The notes below the pieces were generated by a model. The model did no database searches, was not told where the DNA came from, and saw only the letters and a program-made list of their open reading frames with translations. Below, piece after piece: positions 51,026 to 60,483 of a stretch of DNA of 64,000 nt (its first letter is position 1; every line of letters starts with the position of its first letter). Both the position numbers and the translations under genes were made by a program. This DNA comes from Flagellimonas sp. 389. Lineage in GTDB: Bacteria; Bacteroidota; Bacteroidia; Flavobacteriales; Flavobacteriaceae. Location of the stretch: the NCBI RefSeq assembly GCF_018449435.1, contig NZ_JAHCMU010000015.1:1-64000 (forward strand), read 5' to 3'.

Positions 51026-53002
51026 ATGAGATACCATATTGGCGATTTAGACCAACAGAAATTACTGGATTTATACGCAGCTATGCTGAAGCCCAGAATG
51101 ATAGAGGAGAAAATGCTCATTTTATTGCGACAGGGAAAAATTTCCAAATGGTTTAGTGGGATAGGGCAGGAGGCTATTTCAGTTGGTGTAACACATGCTT
51201 TAAAGTCAGAAGAGTATGTATTGCCAATGCACCGAAATCTAGGTGTTTTTACTTCTAGGGGAATTCCGTTAAATCGACTTTTTAGTCAGTGGCAGGGCAA
51301 ACAAAATGGATTCACACAGGGTAGGGACCGTAGTTTTCACTTTGGCACCCAGGAATATAAGATTGTGGGCATGATATCTCACTTAGGCCCACAATTAGGT
51401 GTGGCCGATGGTATTGCTTTGGCAGACATGCTAAGGAGAAAAAAACGGGTTACAGCTGTTTTTACTGGCGAAGGCGCCACCAGTGAAGGCGACTTTCATG
51501 AAGCTTTAAATGTTGCTTCGGTATGGAACCTGCCCGTACTTTTTTGCATTGAGAACAACGGTTACGGACTTTCGACACCGACCAAGGAACAATACAATTG
51601 TGAGAACCTAGCGGATAGGGCCAAAGGATATGGTATGGAATCCAGGATTATTGACGGAAACAATATCCTGGAGGTGTATTCTAAAATTGATGAACTCTGT
51701 AAGGCCATAAGGAAAAGACCAAGACCCGTACTTGTGGAGTTTCAAACATTTAGAATGCGCGGACATGAGGAGGCGAGCGGTACAAAGTACGTCCCAGATA
51801 AGTTGATGAAGAAATGGGCAAAAAAAGACCCAATTTCCAATTATGAAGCTTTTTTGCTGGAAGAGGCGTTAATTTCTACTGCGGAAATAGAAGTGCTTAA
51901 GTCCAAAATCACCGAAGAGATCAATTCGAATCTTCAGCTTGCGTTTGACGAGCCTCCAGTAGAGTGTATTCAAACTAAAGAATTAAAAGAAGTATATAAA
52001 TATTTTGAATATCAACATGTTGATTCCAATTCAGAAGTAAAAAATATTCGACTTGTGGATGCAATTTCGCAAGGTCTGGAGCAATCCATGGAAAAATACA
52101 ACGAGCTGATTATTCTTGGGCAAGACATTGCGGATTACGGAGGTGTTTTTAAGATAACCGAAGGATTCACCAAAAAATTTGGAAAGAGTAGGGTAAGGAA
52201 TACCCCTATTTGTGAATCTGCAATCGTATCTGCTGCTATGGGGCTATCTATAAATGGGATGAAAGCAGTAATGGAAATGCAATTTGCCGATTTTGTTAGC
52301 TCCGGATTCAATCCTATTGTCAACTATTTGGCCAAAGTGCACTACAGATGGGGAGAGAAAGCCGATGTGGTTATACGCATGCCTTGTGGTGGTGGAGTAG
52401 GTGCAGGACCGTTCCATTCTCAGACCAATGAAGCTTGGTTTACCAAAACACCGGGGCTAAAGGTGGTTTATCCTTCTTCTCCATATGATGCAAAAGGCCT
52501 TTTGGCAACAGCCATTAATGACCCAAACCCTGTTTTGTTCTTCGAGCACAAAGGATTGTACAGAAGTGTCTATGGGGATGTGCCTACAGATTACTACACT
52601 TTGCCATTTGGAAAGGCCAATTTGCTGAGCGAAGGAGACATGCTATCCATAGTGACCTACGGTGCGGCTGTTAAATGGGTCACAGATTTTTTGGATAAAA
52701 GCAAAGAAATAAACGCAGATGTCATAGATTTGCGAACATTACAACCTCTAGACATTGAAGCTGTTTACACTTCGGTGAAGAAAACAGGAAAACTATTGAT
52801 ACTGCAAGAAGATACCTTATTTGGAGGTATTGCGAGCGATATTTCGGCAATGGTCATTGAAAACTGTTTTGAGTATTTAGATGCTCCGATTAAGCGAGTT
52901 GGGAGCTTGGAAACACCAATTCCTTTTGCAAAAGGATTAGAGGAAAATTACTTGCCCCAAAAAAGGTTTGAGAAAGCGTTGAAAGAGATTTTAGACTATT
53001 AA
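51026..53002 (+). CDS. 2-oxoacid dehydrogenase E1, alpha and beta fused (branched-chain type)
   Basis: A 658-residue thiamin diphosphate enzyme. The N-terminal half (about 1-320) is E1-alpha-like (GKISKWFSGIGQEAISVGVT, FTGEGATSEGDFHEALN with the ThDP motif, FRMRGHEEASG). The C-terminal half (about 340-658) is E1-beta-like (LGQDIADYGGVFKITEG, MPCGGGVGAGPFHSQTNEAW, LILQEDTLFGGIASDIS). Bacteroidota commonly fuse these. It decarboxylates a 2-oxoacid, most likely a branched-chain one, for transfer to a lipoyl E2 encoded elsewhere. The product acyl-CoA could supply branched fatty-acid primers. Confidence 0.93.
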   Translation: MRYHIGDLDQQKLLDLYAAMLKPRMIEEKMLILLRQGKISKWFSGIGQEAISVGVTHALKSEEYVLPMHRNLGVFTSRGIPLNRLFSQWQGKQNGFTQGRDRSFHFGTQEYKIVGMISHLGPQLGVADGIALADMLRRKKRVTAVFTGEGATSEGDFHEALNVASVWNLPVLFCIENNGYGLSTPTKEQYNCENLADRAKGYGMESRIIDGNNILEVYSKIDELCKAIRKRPRPVLVEFQTFRMRGHEEASGTKYVPDKLMKKWAKKDPISNYEAFLLEEALISTAEIEVLKSKITEEINSNLQLAFDEPPVECIQTKELKEVYKYFEYQHVDSNSEVKNIRLVDAISQGLEQSMEKYNELIILGQDIADYGGVFKITEGFTKKFGKSRVRNTPICESAIVSAAMGLSINGMKAVMEMQFADFVSSGFNPIVNYLAKVHYRWGEKADVVIRMPCGGGVGAGPFHSQTNEAWFTKTPGLKVVYPSSPYDAKGLLATAINDPNPVLFFEHKGLYRSVYGDVPTDYYTLPFGKANLLSEGDMLSIVTYGAAVKWVTDFLDKSKEINADVIDLRTLQPLDIEAVYTSVKKTGKLLILQEDTLFGGIASDISAMVIENCFEYLDAPIKRVGSLETPIPFAKGLEENYLPQKRFEKALKEILDY

Positions 53003-54313: not shown

Positions 54314-54345
54314 AATCCCCGATCTGAACAGGTCGGGATTTTTGC
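54314..54345 (+). terminator. rho-independent terminator of the OmpA-type gene
   Basis: AATCCCCGATCT pairs with AGGTCGGGATT (a bulged C and a G-U pair, loop of about six), followed by TTTTT. It lies 26 bases after the stop and directly before the polyketide cluster. Confidence 0.75.
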
Positions 54346-54368: not shown

Positions 54369-55496
54369 GTGAATGATCACGAAGTACTTATCGTAGGTGG
54401 AGGGTTGGCAGGATTAACAGCTGCATTGGATTTGGCGCAGCGAGGGAAACAGGTTTTGGTTATTGAAAAGAACACCTATCCAAATCATAAAGTGTGTGGA
54501 GAGTATGTTTCTAATGAGGTCAAACCCTATTTAGAACATTTGGGATTCTCTTTATCGGATTTTAGCCTACCAGAAATCAATACATTTCAAATAAGCACTC
54601 AAAAAGGTCGGGTCATTCAAATAGATTTACCGTTGGGGGGCTTTGGAATAAGCAGATATGCTCTAGATTACCATCTTTATATGCTGGCCAAGAAAAAGGG
54701 GGTTGTTTTTCAATTTGATACTGTTACCAATATTCAGTTTATGAATGATAGGTTTTTGGTTACCCTTTCAACTGATAAGGAAATCTTGGCCAAGGTAGTT
54801 TTAGGGGCTTTTGGGAAACGTTCTAACTTAGACGTTAAGCTCGATCGTGGATTCATAAAACGGAAGTCCCAGTGGCTAGGTATAAAATGTCATTATGAGT
54901 ATAGCGGTCATCCTTCCAATTTGGTTGGGTTGCATAATTTTCCTGGCGGATATGGAGGCTTATCGGAAATTGAAGATGGGAGCTTGAATTTCTGTAGTTT
55001 GGTCAATTATGAAAGCTTTAAAAAGGAAAAGAATATCACTGCTTTTAATAAGAATGTGGTGTCGCAAAATCCGTTGTTAAGGGAGTTTTTATCCAATGCT
55101 TCTCCAAAATTCGAAAAATCGATAAGTATCGCCCAGATTTCATTTGAAAAGAAAAAAGCAGTTGAGAATCATATATTGATGTGCGGAGATACGGCAGGAT
55201 TAATACATCCACTTTGTGGCAACGGAATGGCTATGGCGATTCATAGCGCAAAACTTTCAGTGGAAAGTGTAATGAACTTTTTGGAAAAACCTACTTTTTT
55301 GAGAGCGGACATGGAAAATGGGTATCAACAAGAATGGGAAAAGAATTTTAAGAATAGATTATGGATGGGGAGGCAATTACAGACGCTAATGATGCATACC
55401 AATTGGTTTAATTTTGGAATGAATACAGTCGCAAATTCAAGAACAGTATTAAGGAGCTTAATTCGCAGTACCCATGGAAACCCAATCACGATTTAA
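54369..55496 (+). CDS. FAD-dependent oxidoreductase (geranylgeranyl reductase-like), polyketide cluster
   Basis: About 375 residues. Dinucleotide motif VLIVGGGLAGLTAALDLA, then KVCGEYVSNEVKPYLE, and the FAD-binding GDTAGLIHPLCGNGMAMAIHS near residue 270. This family contains geranylgeranyl reductases and aromatic ring hydroxylases or tailoring oxidases. The reported frame starts with TTG 54342 inside the terminator T-run; the GTG at 54369 just before the Rossmann motif is more likely. It is the first gene of a tight eight-gene unit that encodes a type III PKS, so a tailoring role (hydroxylation or oxidation of the ring) is inferred. Confidence 0.85.
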   Translation: MNDHEVLIVGGGLAGLTAALDLAQRGKQVLVIEKNTYPNHKVCGEYVSNEVKPYLEHLGFSLSDFSLPEINTFQISTQKGRVIQIDLPLGGFGISRYALDYHLYMLAKKKGVVFQFDTVTNIQFMNDRFLVTLSTDKEILAKVVLGAFGKRSNLDVKLDRGFIKRKSQWLGIKCHYEYSGHPSNLVGLHNFPGGYGGLSEIEDGSLNFCSLVNYESFKKEKNITAFNKNVVSQNPLLREFLSNASPKFEKSISIAQISFEKKKAVENHILMCGDTAGLIHPLCGNGMAMAIHSAKLSVESVMNFLEKPTFLRADMENGYQQEWEKNFKNRLWMGRQLQTLMMHTNWFNFGMNTVANSRTVLRSLIRSTHGNPITI

Positions 55497-56209
55497 TGGA
55501 TTTTTCAGTAAGAAGCAAGGAGCCGGAGCTCATGGATGATTCAAATATGAAGTTTGATACATTAAGTGAAGCCTATGCGGATATTAATAGATGTAACAGT
55601 TTGTTGGGTGGAGATGGGATAACACTAAATGCTGTGTGGGATTTAGTTAAAATGGATGTCAAAAAATCGTATACGATTTTAGATATGGGCTGTGGGGATG
55701 GTACTATGCTTAGGAAGCTTTCCGATTTTCTAAGTAAAAGGGAAGTTTCGCATAGTATGATCGGCATAGATTTAAGAGATGATGTACTTCGTATTGCCAA
55801 GGAAAAATCAATAGATTTCCCTAATCTTACGTTTAAGAAAGTAGATATTTTAAAAGCAGATTCAGAACTCACTTGTGACATTCTGATCAACACGTTGACT
55901 ATGCATCACTTTGATGAAGACCGGATAGATGCATTTTTGAAACAATTTGTGCATCTTGCCAAAATTGGCGTAGTTATCAACGATTTACAACGCAGTAGAA
56001 TGGCCTATGTGCTTTTCCATGTTTTTGGTTTGTTTTTCATAAGAACCAAAGTGGCAAAATATGATGGTCTTGTTTCCATTAGTAAAGGTTTTAGAAAAGA
56101 GGAACTTATTGCATTGTCAAAAAATATACCAAATGTTATCCATAAAATTCAATGGAAATGGGCTTTTAGATATGTTTGGATAATGAACTTTAAACGACAG
56201 TATAGTTAA
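55496..56209 (+). CDS. class I SAM-dependent methyltransferase
   Basis: A 237-residue protein. SAM motif I is ILDMGCGDGTMLRKL (about residue 62), IGIDLRDDVLRIAKE is motif II-like, and NTLTMHHFDEDRI follows. The start ATG overlaps the preceding stop (TAATG) and its stop overlaps the type III PKS start, so translation is coupled. The C-terminal part (KWAFRYVWIMNF) is not a recognised extra domain. In the cluster it probably O- or C-methylates the polyketide product, as SrsB-like enzymes do. Confidence 0.88.
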   Translation: MDFSVRSKEPELMDDSNMKFDTLSEAYADINRCNSLLGGDGITLNAVWDLVKMDVKKSYTILDMGCGDGTMLRKLSDFLSKREVSHSMIGIDLRDDVLRIAKEKSIDFPNLTFKKVDILKADSELTCDILINTLTMHHFDEDRIDAFLKQFVHLAKIGVVINDLQRSRMAYVLFHVFGLFFIRTKVAKYDGLVSISKGFRKEELIALSKNIPNVIHKIQWKWAFRYVWIMNFKRQYS

Positions 56210-57264
56210 TGAATTCAGTTCGTGTTGTGCAGGTATCTAAGCAAGTCCCCATTTATAGTAGAGATACATCGGATATCATTCCTTTTATAAATACATGGCT
56301 TTCGGGACGGGATGAACGCTTCCGTAGAAAGGTGGTCAAGATATTTGAGGGTGCAGGTGTTGATCGTCGCTTTGGCATCATGGATATTGAAGAAGTCTTT
56401 ATGGCCACTTCTTTTGAAGAAAAAAATGCTATCTATGCTAGAGAAGCAAAAATATTGGGGAAGAAAGCTTTGGTCAAAGCATTGGCAAAAGCCAACTGGC
56501 AAAGCGAATCGTTGGATTTCATAATTGCGGTAAGTTGTACCGGCATTATGATTCCTTCGTTGGATGCATATTTGGTCGATACAGTAGGGTTGAAACAAAA
56601 TATTGTTAGGCTTCCTGTTACCGAAATGGGTTGCGCCGCAGGCGTGTCCGGTCTCATATATGCTGCTAATTTTCTAAGGGCAAATCCTGGAAAACGTGCC
56701 GCCGTAGTGGCGGTTGAAAGCCCTACGGCCACTTTTCAATTAAATGATTTTTCCATGGCCAATATGGTCAGTGCCGCAATATTTGGTGATGGTGCTGCAT
56801 GTGTTTTACTGTCTTCGGAATCTGACTCCCAGGGGCCGAAAGTGATCGGAGAAGAAATGTATCATTTTAAAGATGCTACTCATCTAATGGGCTTTGACCT
56901 AACCAATACTGGATTGAAAATGATTTTAGACCCAGCAGTTCCTCAAGTAATAGCAGAACATTTTCCAAAAATTGTCCATCCATTTTTGCAAAAATTTGAT
57001 TCAAATATTGAGAAAGTGAATCATTTGATTTTTCATCCAGGAGGAAGGAAGATTGTACAGACGGTTGAAGAATTGTTTGGTAAATTAGGGAAGAATATTG
57101 ATGATACGCGGGAAGTGTTAAGGGCATATGGTAATATGAGTAGCGTTACCGTGCTCTATGTCTTGGAGCGATTTTTAGAGAAGGACATTGAACCTGGAGA
57201 ACAGGGAATGGTGTTAAGTTTTGGCCCAGGGTTTTCTGCACAGCGTGTTTTATTGGAATGGTAA
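56209..57264 (+). CDS. type III polyketide synthase (chalcone synthase family)
   Basis: A 351-residue homodimeric-type ketosynthase. The catalytic Cys142 lies in TEMGCAAGVSGL, His276 in LIFHPGGRKIV and Asn309 in AYGNMSSVTVLY, so the Cys-His-Asn triad is intact. The family extends an acyl-CoA or acyl-ACP starter with malonyl-CoA and cyclises to pyrones, resorcinols, phloroglucinols or chromones. Gatekeeper residues cannot be compared here. Surrounding FabF, FabZ, enoyl reductase and ACP genes suggest a fatty-acyl starter. Its ATG overlaps the methyltransferase stop. Confidence 0.93.
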   Translation: MNSVRVVQVSKQVPIYSRDTSDIIPFINTWLSGRDERFRRKVVKIFEGAGVDRRFGIMDIEEVFMATSFEEKNAIYAREAKILGKKALVKALAKANWQSESLDFIIAVSCTGIMIPSLDAYLVDTVGLKQNIVRLPVTEMGCAAGVSGLIYAANFLRANPGKRAAVVAVESPTATFQLNDFSMANMVSAAIFGDGAACVLLSSESDSQGPKVIGEEMYHFKDATHLMGFDLTNTGLKMILDPAVPQVIAEHFPKIVHPFLQKFDSNIEKVNHLIFHPGGRKIVQTVEELFGKLGKNIDDTREVLRAYGNMSSVTVLYVLERFLEKDIEPGEQGMVLSFGPGFSAQRVLLEW

Positions 57265-57279
57265 TTTGATTGGATAACA

Positions 57280-58062
57280 ATGAGTGATACAAAGAAATGG
57301 GCATTGATATTGGGTGGTAGTAGCGGACTTGGTTTGGCGACTGTAAAAAAACTTGCTGAAAAACAATTTAATGTAATAGTTATTCATAGGGATAGAAAAT
57401 CTGATTTAGAGGAAATTAATGATGTTTTTCGAGAAATTACTTTAAGTAGAAAAATATTGCATAGTTTTAATATCGATGCTATAAACCCTGAAAAGCGGGA
57501 AAGGCTGATACAAGAAATTACAAAACTGGTCAGGACAGAAAAGATACACGTGCTAGTCCATAGTATTGCAAAAGGTAACTTAAAGTCAATGTTGGATGAA
57601 GAAGGGAATGTGCTGAGTAACCAGGATTTTCATTTGACTATTGATGCGATGGCAATAAGTCTTTATGACTGGGTGAAAACATTGGATAGGAAGAAGCTCT
57701 TTGCAAAGGACACCCGTATAGTCGCTTATACCAGTGAAGGTAGCTCCAAAGCTTGGCGAAGTTATGCAGCGGTATCCGCTGCAAAAGCTGTCTTGGAATC
57801 AATTGTCCGAAATATAGCGTTGGAATTTGCACCGAAAGGCATCAAGGCGAACTGTATTCAAGCTGGTGTTACCGACACGAAATCCCTTCAAATGATTCCG
57901 AATAGTGATTTGCTTATACAGGAGTCATTACGAAGAAATCCGAATAATCGTTTAACGACTCCAGAAGACATAGCGAATGCAACATACCTTCTAACATTGG
58001 AAGAGGCCAAATGGATAACCGGAACTGTTTTAAAAGTAGATGGTGGGGAAAGTTTGCAATAA
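57280..58062 (+). CDS. FabL-like enoyl-ACP reductase (SDR)
   Basis: A 260-residue SDR with glycine motif LGGSSGLGLAT. The catalytic Tyr-Lys are spaced as in enoyl-ACP reductases: Tyr162 and Lys169 (SYAAVSAAKAVLE), Y-x6-K rather than Y-x3-K. The following IALEFAPKGIKANCIQAG and SLQMIPNSD resemble FabL from Bacillus more than FabI. It should reduce the enoyl bond of an acyl-ACP with NAD(P)H. It starts 15 bases after the PKS gene. The name 'FabL-like' is inference. Confidence 0.82.
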   Translation: MSDTKKWALILGGSSGLGLATVKKLAEKQFNVIVIHRDRKSDLEEINDVFREITLSRKILHSFNIDAINPEKRERLIQEITKLVRTEKIHVLVHSIAKGNLKSMLDEEGNVLSNQDFHLTIDAMAISLYDWVKTLDRKKLFAKDTRIVAYTSEGSSKAWRSYAAVSAAKAVLESIVRNIALEFAPKGIKANCIQAGVTDTKSLQMIPNSDLLIQESLRRNPNNRLTTPEDIANATYLLTLEEAKWITGTVLKVDGGESLQ

Positions 58063-58065
58063 AGT

Positions 58066-58524
58066 ATGATGATAAAAAAAATAATAGCATTATTGCCATA
58101 TAAGGCTCCTTTCCTGTTTGTGGATGAAATCAATGCCATTAATGAAAATGGGGTCGAGGGGACCTTCGTGTTTAAAAAAACTTCTTCTTTTTATAAAGGC
58201 CATTTTAAAAACTTTCCCGTCACACCAGGTGTAATTCTAACAGAGTGCTGTGCCCAAATTGGTGTAGTATGCCTTGGTATATATCTTCTTAAAGATGAAA
58301 TTGAGGAAGATACCGAAAAAAACCTGCAAATAGCCTTAAGTAGTTCAGAAATGGAATTTTATCTACCCGTATTCCCAGATGAAATGGTAAGGGTTGTTTC
58401 GGAAAAGGTGTATTTCCGGTTTAATAAACTAAAATGTAAAGTGAAACTTTTTAATTCAGAAGACAAGCTAGTATGCAAAGGTATTTTGGCAGGGATGTTT
58501 AAACAAGAAGGGAATGGGAAATAG
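58066..58524 (+). CDS. FabZ-like 3-hydroxyacyl-ACP dehydratase
   Basis: A 152-residue hot-dog protein. The catalytic His46 and Glu60 lie in the motif FYKGHFKNFPVTPGVILTE, as in FabZ. The family dehydrates beta-hydroxyacyl-ACP. The gene begins 3 bases after the reductase gene and its end overlaps the ketosynthase start by 11 bases. The second in-frame ATG at 58069 could be the actual start. Confidence 0.88.
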   Translation: MMIKKIIALLPYKAPFLFVDEINAINENGVEGTFVFKKTSSFYKGHFKNFPVTPGVILTECCAQIGVVCLGIYLLKDEIEEDTEKNLQIALSSSEMEFYLPVFPDEMVRVVSEKVYFRFNKLKCKVKLFNSEDKLVCKGILAGMFKQEGNGK

Positions 58525-59788
58525 AGTTGTTGTAACGGGTATGGGGGTCTGTGCACCTAATGGGATAGGCCTTCCTGAATTCACAAAAGCGTTAAAAAAT
58601 GGAACTAGCGGTATACGCTTTCATAAAGAATTGGAACAATTAAAATTTGGATGTCAAATTGCTGGTAAACCGATTATTGAAAATATTAATTTAAATAATT
58701 ACTTTACTAATCTGCAATTACGTGGGCTTAACGCAAGCGGAGTGCTTTATGGTGTTATTGCGGGTAAGGATGCTTGGCAAGATGCGGGCCTGCCCATATT
58801 TTCCGAAGAACATCCCGATTGGGATAGTGGGGTTGTATTCGGAACGGGAATTCTGGGTGTAGATAAGTTTCGGGAAGCAATTTATCAAGTGGATGAAGGT
58901 AATGTGCGACGATTGGGGAGTACCTCGGTAATCCAGACCATGGCTAGTGGAATCAGCGCTTATTTGGGAGGCATGTTAGGATGTGGAAATCAGGTTACGA
59001 CAAACTCTTCTGCTTGTACCACAGGTACCGAAGCTATTTTAATGGGGTATGAACGTATAAAATCCAAAAAAGCCGTTCGTGTATTGGTCGGCAGTTGTAG
59101 CGATAGCGGGCCTTATGTTTGGGGCGGATTTGATGCTATGCGTATACTTCCCAGAGGTTTTAATGCTAATCCCGATAAAGCTAGCAGGCCAATGAGTGCT
59201 TCTGCTTCCGGATTTATTCCAGGTAGCGGGGCCGGAGCCCTCGTTTTAGAATCTTTGAAGAGTGCCCTACAACGCAATGCGATTATTTATGCGGAGATTT
59301 TAGGAGGAAACATAAATAGTGGTGGCCAACGCGGAGGCGGCACTATGACAGCCCCAAATAATGAGGCAGTCGTTCGCTGTATCAAATCAGCCGTTAATGA
59401 TTCGGGTATTACTTCTAAAGAAATAGATGCCATTAATGGTCATTTGACCGCTACAACAAAGGATACGGTCGAAATACAAAATTGGAGCAATGCCTTAGGA
59501 CTTTCAAACATGGACTTTCCATACATCAATTCGTTTAAAAGTATGTTTGGACATTGTTTAGCGGCAGCGGGTAGCATTGAGTGTGTTGCCACGTTATTGC
59601 AATTTCGAGAAAAACAGTTATTCGGGACCATAAACTGCGAAGACGTACATCCAGAAATAAGCAAAGTAGTGGACAATTCAAAAATTCCACAAAATACAAT
59701 CGATTTTGAGCCTAAAATCATAGCGAAAGCAAGTTTTGGTTTTGGTGATGTAAATGCCTGTATTATTTTTAGCGCATATAATCAGTGA
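58514..59788 (+). CDS. FabF-like beta-ketoacyl-ACP synthase
   Basis: A 424-residue KAS II-type enzyme. Catalytic Cys168 (TNSSACTTGTEA), His310 (INGHLTATTKDTVE, where the usual HGTxT is HLTAT) and Lys342/His347 (FKSMFGHCLAAAG) are all present. It condenses malonyl-ACP with an acyl primer or chain. It overlaps the dehydratase gene and is followed by the ACP gene. Its specific role, probably chain elongation for the starter, is inferred from the cluster. Confidence 0.92.
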   Translation: MGNRVVVTGMGVCAPNGIGLPEFTKALKNGTSGIRFHKELEQLKFGCQIAGKPIIENINLNNYFTNLQLRGLNASGVLYGVIAGKDAWQDAGLPIFSEEHPDWDSGVVFGTGILGVDKFREAIYQVDEGNVRRLGSTSVIQTMASGISAYLGGMLGCGNQVTTNSSACTTGTEAILMGYERIKSKKAVRVLVGSCSDSGPYVWGGFDAMRILPRGFNANPDKASRPMSASASGFIPGSGAGALVLESLKSALQRNAIIYAEILGGNINSGGQRGGGTMTAPNNEAVVRCIKSAVNDSGITSKEIDAINGHLTATTKDTVEIQNWSNALGLSNMDFPYINSFKSMFGHCLAAAGSIECVATLLQFREKQLFGTINCEDVHPEISKVVDNSKIPQNTIDFEPKIIAKASFGFGDVNACIIFSAYNQ

Positions 59789-59806
59789 TAAACCTAAATA
59801 TTGAAG

Positions 59807-60061
59807 ATGCAAGAACAACAACGATATCAGAAGTTAAAAGAAATCATACAAACCTATTTACCAGACGATGTTTCTGTAAACGACATAACACCGGAAAGTA
59901 ATTTTACGCAGGAACTGAATATCAATTCCGCTAATTTGGTGGACATTGTATTGGATGTAGAGGATGCTTTTGACATTATGCTAGAGAATGAGGATATGGA
60001 TGGTATGCAAACCGTTAAGGATGCATTATTGATTATCGATACCAAACTTGCTGAAAAATGA
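59807..60061 (+). CDS. acyl carrier protein
   Basis: An 84-residue ACP. Ser41 in LNINSANLVDIVLD replaces the usual DSL context with NSA, but the Ser for phosphopantetheine remains, and four-helix features (TPESNFTQELNIN; VEDAFDIMLENEDMDGM) fit. The reported frame from TTG 59801 adds two residues; I chose the ATG at 59807. Its stop overlaps the next start (ATGA). It probably serves the KS, DH and ER of this cluster rather than general fatty-acid synthesis. Confidence 0.88.
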   Translation: MQEQQRYQKLKEIIQTYLPDDVSVNDITPESNFTQELNINSANLVDIVLDVEDAFDIMLENEDMDGMQTVKDALLIIDTKLAEK

Positions 60062-60483
60062 AAGATTTTCTAAACTATGCAACCAGTAAGCTCAGGGTAG
60101 ATAAACGATTGGTGTTTTTATACTGTTTGGTATATTTTACGTGGGGTATGGGCATGAACTGGTTTGGTGCTCAAATGGAAATAGCAAAGTTTACATTTTG
60201 GTGGCAGGTAATCACATGTTATATTCTTTATATGGTACCAATTTCCTTGCTCTTGAAAGGGTTGCCCTTTCACGCACAATATGCCTACGGACTTATAGCA
60301 ATGGGGCTTTTAGAGCTTAGCGGATATGCCTTGCAGACATCCTACGCGTATCCGAACAATATTTTAGATCAGTTCCTTAACATCCGTAATTTCAGCTTGG
60401 GGATGGCCCTCTTTTTTGCATTGTATTTTCCTCTGGGCAACTGGGGTGTTTCCAAAATTTACAATGCTTTGTTTGGGCGATAA
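60058..60483 (+). CDS. small multi-pass membrane protein of the polyketide cluster
   Basis: A 141-residue protein with about four membrane segments (for example LVFLYCLVYFTWGMGMNWF, LGMALFFALYFPLGNW). I recognise no family. It is translationally coupled to the ACP gene and is the last gene of the unit. It could anchor the enzymes, move the lipid product across the membrane, or give resistance; these are guesses. Confidence 0.78.
   Translation: MKDFLNYATSKLRVDKRLVFLYCLVYFTWGMGMNWFGAQMEIAKFTFWWQVITCYILYMVPISLLLKGLPFHAQYAYGLIAMGLLELSGYALQTSYAYPNNILDQFLNIRNFSLGMALFFALYFPLGNWGVSKIYNALFGR

Follow-up and report, generated by a model that had tools for sequence, protein, structure and literature searches.

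The window analyzed here (the whole 64,000-nucleotide stretch, positions 1 to 64,000 of contig NZ_JAHCMU010000015.1 of Flagellimonas sp. 389) contains at 54369–60483 a cluster of eight co-directional forward-strand genes that combines a type III polyketide synthase (PKS) with an acyl carrier protein (ACP), a ketosynthase (KS), a dehydratase (DH), an enoyl reductase (ER), a methyltransferase (MT), a flavin adenine dinucleotide (FAD)-dependent enzyme and a small membrane protein. Conserved as a unit in the Flavobacteriaceae, the cluster is present in about one third of the sampled genomes, and as far as the genome shows its KS, DH, ER and ACP are a dedicated set. We favor, with a probability of about 55%, the view that this is a dedicated operon in which enzymes resembling a type II fatty acid synthase (FAS-II) would make a chain on their own ACP, the PKS would take the chain from that ACP, and the product would then be methylated and oxidized. 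The likely outcome is a modified lipid of phenolic, pyrone or quinone type.

Protein families were assigned by Pfam and NCBIfam searches, and the gene order is FAD enzyme, MT, PKS, ER, DH, KS, ACP and membrane protein; of the seven junctions, four are overlaps (1, 1, 11 and 4 bases) and the others are gaps of 3–18 bases. The first gene (GTG start at 54369, ending at 55496; an alternative upstream TTG start lies at 54342) encodes an FAD-dependent oxidoreductase/monooxygenase of the geranylgeranyl-reductase superfamily with a KVCGE motif; the structures nearest to its AlphaFold2 (AF2) model (pLDDT 89.2) are flavin halogenases and monooxygenases. It is followed by a PRK06202-like class I S-adenosylmethionine-dependent MT (55496–56209) and by the type III PKS (56209–57264), which matches PF00195 and PF02797 above cut-off, carries the triad C142/H276/N309 and has an AF2 model (pLDDT 85.8) whose nearest folds are CylI and Pks11. 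The fourth gene (57280–58062) encodes a short-chain dehydrogenase/reductase (SDR) whose top NCBIfam model is FabL (147 bits, below the cut-off of 328) and whose top solved-structure match is FabL 3oic; because of this match and its Y162-x6-K169 pair we assign it as a FabL-type enoyl-ACP reductase and not a ketoreductase. Next come a FabZ-like hotdog DH with H46 and E60 (58066–58524), a FabF-like KS with C168, H310 and H347 (58514–59788), an ACP whose Ser43 lies in the motif INSANLVD (59801 with a TTG start or 59807 with ATG, to 60061) and a small protein without a Pfam match that we judge by eye to be a membrane protein (60058–60483). No ketoreductase gene is present within 54369–60483, and Pfam identified neither a CoA ligase or other loading enzyme nor an acyltransferase family among the window's cluster genes. 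A first-pass annotation of this DNA had described eight packed genes of these families with a complete PKS triad and no ketoreductase, and the open reading frames, junctions and family searches agree with it.

The catalytic residues are conserved throughout the alignments, which held 168–193 cluster sequences per protein. The PKS triad is invariant (193/193), as are Ser43 of the ACP (181/181), the ER pair (168/168) and both DH residues (186/186); in the KS, C168 is found in all 183 sequences and H310 and H347 in 181 of them, and D63, G65 and G69 of the MT do not vary in 193 rows.

Among 299 Flavobacteriaceae genomes, 110 contain a type III PKS above the Pfam cut-off. Leaving out the window's own, these account for 111 places, of which 102 are of the cluster type (the census loci) and nine hold distant PKSs. 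Where at least 4 kb of downstream flank was available (99 census loci), the FAD enzyme and MT are always present and the core of FAD enzyme, MT, PKS, DH, KS and ACP is complete in 95. The ER is found in 91, one of which (L216) has only a 35-bit fragment, a phosphopantetheinyl transferase (PPTase) follows the ACP in 30 (~30%), and 26 have the small membrane protein. The PPTase family was assigned by Pfam on one member (L073) and extended with a 14-sequence profile. PPTase and membrane protein occur together in only two of the 102 census loci (L174 and L244), against totals of 30 with the PPTase and 26 with the membrane protein. Genes are split into two frames at L240 (FAD enzyme and PKS) and L244 (FAD enzyme). 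A second set of named loci, the best 80 of at least 581 matches, included 73 with sufficient flank, every one of which has the six core genes, a level of association far beyond chance; the ER is found in 64 of these and the membrane protein in 39. The closest named PKS relatives among the matches listed are six from Flagellimonas/Allomuricauda, at 81–83% identity. One complete cluster with a PPTase (L271) lies in a genome from another family of the class; its PKS is nested among those of Flavobacteriaceae, and the cluster was therefore probably transferred horizontally.

The set is dedicated in the sense that the genome (46 contigs, 99.99% complete) has other copies of the fatty acid enzymes. 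It encodes a single type III PKS, three KS-family proteins, two FabA/Z-type domains, 21 SDRs and two ACPs. A second FabF-like KS adjoins the second ACP elsewhere in the genome; its identity to the cluster KS is 32%, and the two ACPs share 30% identity across 54 residues. The second FabA/Z-type domain is in a 472-residue frame that is probably an LpxC-FabZ fusion, and an SDR at position 94644 of contig C4 has a FabI-like YX6K motif, an ER copy outside the cluster. By their position and family, we infer that these outside copies are the housekeeping FAS-II genes. The first-pass annotation had tied a dedicated ACP/KS/DH/ER set to the PKS, and had named the lack of separate fatty acid synthase (FAS) copies, or an inactive PKS, as what would overturn it; extra KS, FabA/Z, ACP and ER copies exist and the triad is intact. 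That the FAS-like genes serve general lipid synthesis is thus rejected by the extra copies and also goes against the co-occurrence of KS and PKS described below, while the invariant or nearly invariant catalytic residues speak against an inactive PKS; we regard either possibility as highly improbable.

Coupling of the two halves of the cluster is seen across the same 299 genomes, in which the cluster KS was detected by a profile at E <= 1e-110. Cluster KS and PKS are both present in 101, the PKS alone in two, the KS alone in none, and neither in 196. One of the two PKS-only genomes (G293) is 76% complete and has a KS fragment at a contig end. More telling than the co-occurrence p value are genomes in which the halves have come apart and both have been retained: in G190, a single contig, ~355 kb separate the DH-KS-ACP half and the PKS half, and G144 has the two halves on different contigs. 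They are on separate contigs in G276 and G066 too, where separation is undecidable from the assembly because the PKS contig stops near the cluster.

The cluster PKS is not simply that of the PKS-MT-FAD trios found elsewhere in the phylum. The trees contained PKSs of Bacteroidota trios as the reference, Srs, Pkq and Hid sequences themselves not being among the rows. In a careful 44-row tree, a single clade of cluster and Bacteroidia trio PKSs is rejected (approximately unbiased (AU) test, p 0.0006). A quick tree places the cluster PKS beside PKSs that mostly have an ICMT methyltransferase gene next to them (support 86, unstarred), and all ten neighbors of this sister group tested with Pfam are ICMT. 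The sister group has 14 rows, of which these are ten; L270 is absent from the neighbor listing, and inspection by eye shows no ICMT gene next to the PKS in L303, L305 or L320. We take such neighbors to be comparable to the bps pair of B. subtilis, whose starters are presumably long-chain.

The active site of the cluster PKS also differs. We mapped the position of ArsB Trp281, equivalent to Pks11 Trp230, through the Pks11 alignment and PMC5916927, and compared 28 cluster rows with 76 others (the distant L248, L249 and L250 left out). The cluster PKSs have phenylalanine (Phe229) at this position in 28/28 of these rows and in 193/193 of the full alignment, and tryptophan is found in 37/37 trio rows, 14/14 sister rows and 18 of 22 other lone rows; among three proteobacterial rows with neighboring ACP and KS genes, two of them identical, the Caballeronia row has phenylalanine. 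ArsB Trp281 has been discussed as decisive in resorcinol formation (PMC5916927, PMC6274091). With an aromatic residue retained, aldol closure would still be possible. All 28 cluster rows have E139, P172, M217 and H219, residues that none of the 76 others has; T138 and F220 are likewise invariant in the cluster but also occur in a few others. The product is probably not readable from the PKS sequence, and the altered active site may point beyond the known alkylresorcinols.

The tailoring enzymes appear to have another history. Outside the family we hand-picked, from the listed matches and not at random, 59 loci of the phylum with a type III PKS: 29 have PKS, MT and FAD enzyme without KS or ACP (in eight of these the FAD match is below 40 bits), five have one of MT and FAD enzyme, 22 have neither, one (L271) has the full cluster and two are arranged otherwise. 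In the FAD enzyme tree the cluster groups with the Bacteroidia trio enzymes (90/97). The cluster MT and FAD enzyme are related to the PKS-MT-FAD trio enzymes of Bacteroidota, and the cluster as a whole looks like a mosaic in which a FAS-II module has been added to trio-like tailoring enzymes and a PKS of different descent. On a Hymenobacter plasmid (L332:2054-7068) an isonitrile synthase and a TauD-like dioxygenase precede a relative of the cluster FAD enzyme, and no PKS is annotated in the 6 kb inspected to each side.

How, then, might the cluster work? We propose that ACP, KS, DH and ER, with a borrowed housekeeping ketoreductase and malonyl-ACP, would produce a special acyl chain. The PKS would accept this acyl-ACP, or an unreduced beta-ketoacyl-ACP left by the KS, extend it with malonyl-CoA and cyclize it into a lipid of resorcinol or pyrone type, which the MT and FAD enzyme may then methylate and hydroxylate or oxidize, as in the srs, pkq and hid operons. 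The direct hand-off from the ACP, the order of steps, the type of ring and the product are all inferred. The cluster may lack a ketoreductase either because FabG is borrowed or because unreduced beta-ketoacyl-ACP is handed over. The methylated, oxidized phenolic or pyrone lipid predicted in the first-pass annotation seems a reasonable expectation.

Several known systems come close to the cluster. In the cylindrocyclophane pathway, type I PKS modules precede CylI, which with Pks11 has the fold nearest to the cluster PKS. To our knowledge germicidin synthase (GCS) works without a dedicated FAS set. A solved structure of CylI holds, according to its entry title, a beta-ketoacyl substrate. CylI receives a chain started on a free ACP (PMC8086630), and acyl-ACP is taken directly by ArsB/ArsC, GCS and SCO7671 (PMC6274091). 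The ars locus of Azotobacter (type I FAS ArsA with ArsB/ArsC) resembles our cluster in linking a dedicated FAS to a type III PKS, and there the acyl-ACP hand-off has been shown (PMC6274091); in contrast, the cluster has dissociated single-domain KS, DH, ER and ACP proteins together with MT and FAD enzyme, and no type I FAS. The srs, pkq and hid operons of Streptomyces, mycobacteria, cyanobacteria and planctomycetes have the same adjacent PKS, MT and FAD genes, and yield methylated alkylresorcinols, hierridins and respiratory polyketide quinones (PMC10896814, PMC8086630, PMC9927152). The cluster FAD enzyme is near those of the Bacteroidia trios, the sequences compared being these and not those of the named operons; unlike the operons, the cluster adds ACP, KS, DH, ER and in part a PPTase, and its PKS is outside the Bacteroidota trio clade. 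From the bps-type PKS-ICMT pairs, beside whose PKSs its own is placed, the cluster differs in having a class I MT instead of ICMT, plus the FAD enzyme and FAS-II set. The srs/ars likeness drawn in the first-pass annotation thus holds for MT and FAD enzyme, which are akin to those of the Bacteroidota trio, and does not hold further: the cluster lacks a type I FAS and so is not ars-type, and given its PKS clade and the phenylalanine in place of tryptophan it is not simply srs-type either.

Several observations weigh against our preferred reading of a dedicated, ACP-fed operon. The ER is absent from 8–12% of clusters (8/99 census loci and 9/73 named loci), and together with the missing ketoreductase this means that part of the enzyme set must come from elsewhere. 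Three of the 99 census loci hold just FAD enzyme, MT, PKS and SDR at the PKS locus, and the fourth incomplete one, L244, lacks the DH. Two of those three belong to G144 and G190, whose KS half lies elsewhere; the third belongs to the second PKS-only genome (G138, 130 contigs), in which no cluster KS was found. The co-occurrence counts are not phylogenetically independent, and because the genomes are related a Fisher p value overstates the association and is meaningless as a probability. The group used in the AU test was chosen after an earlier tree had been seen, and treekit gave a long-branch warning. The grouping of the FAD enzymes is unstarred and its bootstraps fall to 0% when three barely similar rows, with FAD matches below 40 bits, are included, and the MT tree does not join the cluster to the Bacteroidia trio but places it nearer other trios.

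Alternative arrangements of the same enzymes must also be weighed. In a more specific and tentative version, the KS would pass unreduced beta-ketoacyl-ACP to the PKS, and about one third of Flavobacteriaceae would make a methylated membrane lipid resembling a quinone, which might carry electrons alongside menaquinone; such a hand-off would account for the missing ketoreductase and for the Novosphingobium and Caballeronia runs described below, in which ACP and KS come without DH or ER. The order could also be reversed, with the PKS turning malonyl-CoA into an aromatic or pyrone thioester in the manner of DpgA or THNS, and KS, DH, ER and ACP lengthening it to an aryl fatty acid that is then methylated and hydroxylated. 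The top NCBIfam model for the PKS is indeed DpgA (173 bits, below the cut-off of 425), the enzyme is apart from the Bacteroidia trio PKSs, and E139, P172, M217 and H219 are confined to the cluster rows; but DpgA was the sole type III PKS model returned, so the match says little, the PKS leans toward the ICMT group (10/10 tested) that we presume shares the long-chain starters of bps, and the cluster is without a CoA ligase or loading enzyme. We consider this order rather unlikely.

If the cluster were an ordinary srs/pkq-type alkylquinone operon whose FAS-like genes just boost the common supply of acyl-ACP or acyl-CoA, the relatedness of its MT and FAD enzyme to trio enzymes would follow, and trios do yield alkylresorcinols and quinones in other phyla (PMC10896814, PMC9927152). 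Against this improbable reading, the PKS is in another clade with phenylalanine at the tryptophan position, results on which the simple srs-type reading failed, and the 29 hand-picked trio loci of the phylum, including those eight with weak FAD matches, have no FAS genes nearby. Two separate chains are, in our estimate, slightly less probable again: the PKS would start from the cell's ordinary acyl-CoA, and the acyl group made by the FAS-II-like set would be a different one, to be attached to the phenolic product. The halves lie apart in G190 and G144 and so need not form one assembly line, yet no acyltransferase family is encoded among the window's cluster genes, and in Novosphingobium and Caballeronia KS and ACP stand beside the PKS without DH or ER.

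Similar couplings exist in other lineages. On Novosphingobium plasmid pLA3 (L329:8067-13050) ACP, KS, type III PKS and FAD monooxygenase form one run with an MT nearby on the opposite strand, and on Caballeronia pSBC2-3 (L334:4133-8840) the order is PKS, MT, FAD enzyme, ACP, KS. In two genomes of phylum family f18 (L301:6600-12574 and L302:552-6696) an AcpS-like frame, DH, ACP-like frame, KS and two SDRs precede a distant PKS, the AcpS-like frame and the ACP-like frame (96–98 residues) being judged by eye from the sequence starts; these loci are apparently an independent FAS-II/type III PKS cluster. KS and ACP are the part common to all couplings. Against the cluster KS model the outside KSs score 78, 141, 144 and 147 bits, below the 225 of the Flagellimonas genome's other FabF, and the outside PKSs fall elsewhere in the tree (the Caballeronia row is long-branched and its placement unsure), which suggests separate recruitment. 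A single ancestral PKS-ACP-KS cluster shared across phyla is disfavored by the same two results.

A terminator-like hairpin (54318–54337, forward strand) lies between the upstream OmpA gene and the cluster, but the region has no more such sites than chance would give (five found, 6.1 expected). Downstream, a YceI gene faces the cluster. Upstream, at 51026–53002, is a fused E1 alpha/beta dehydrogenase gene resembling branched-chain keto acid dehydrogenase, and one sequence group's gene occupies that upstream position in 72/80 named loci. It could supply branched starters or reflect synteny only, and we have not assigned it to the pathway.

Type III PKS regions are common in published surveys, making up 10.74% of biosynthetic gene clusters in 2,680 Flavobacteriaceae genomes (PMC10734526) and 9% in another set (PMC7440613); from our census (102/111), these are probably mostly this cluster. 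As far as covered here, such surveys give neither a product nor an internal logic for these loci. In papers on Leeuwenhoekiella and Aquimarina the loci match no known compound (PMC9859067, PMC9860996), and these two and PMC9323603 describe either no known-compound match or polyketides called likely novel. In the literature we searched, not always in a product-directed way and with most subscription papers outside its coverage, we found no published product for this layout, in line with the first-pass annotation.

The cluster is thus probably one of the commonest uncharacterized gene cluster types of Flavobacteriaceae, and the reading of it as a dedicated, ACP-fed operon supplies its internal logic and clear predictions of how a type III PKS is supplied by fatty acid enzymes. 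Given the couplings in other lineages, this may be a general solution. If the product is a redox lipid, it would matter for how an abundant group of marine bacteria respires.

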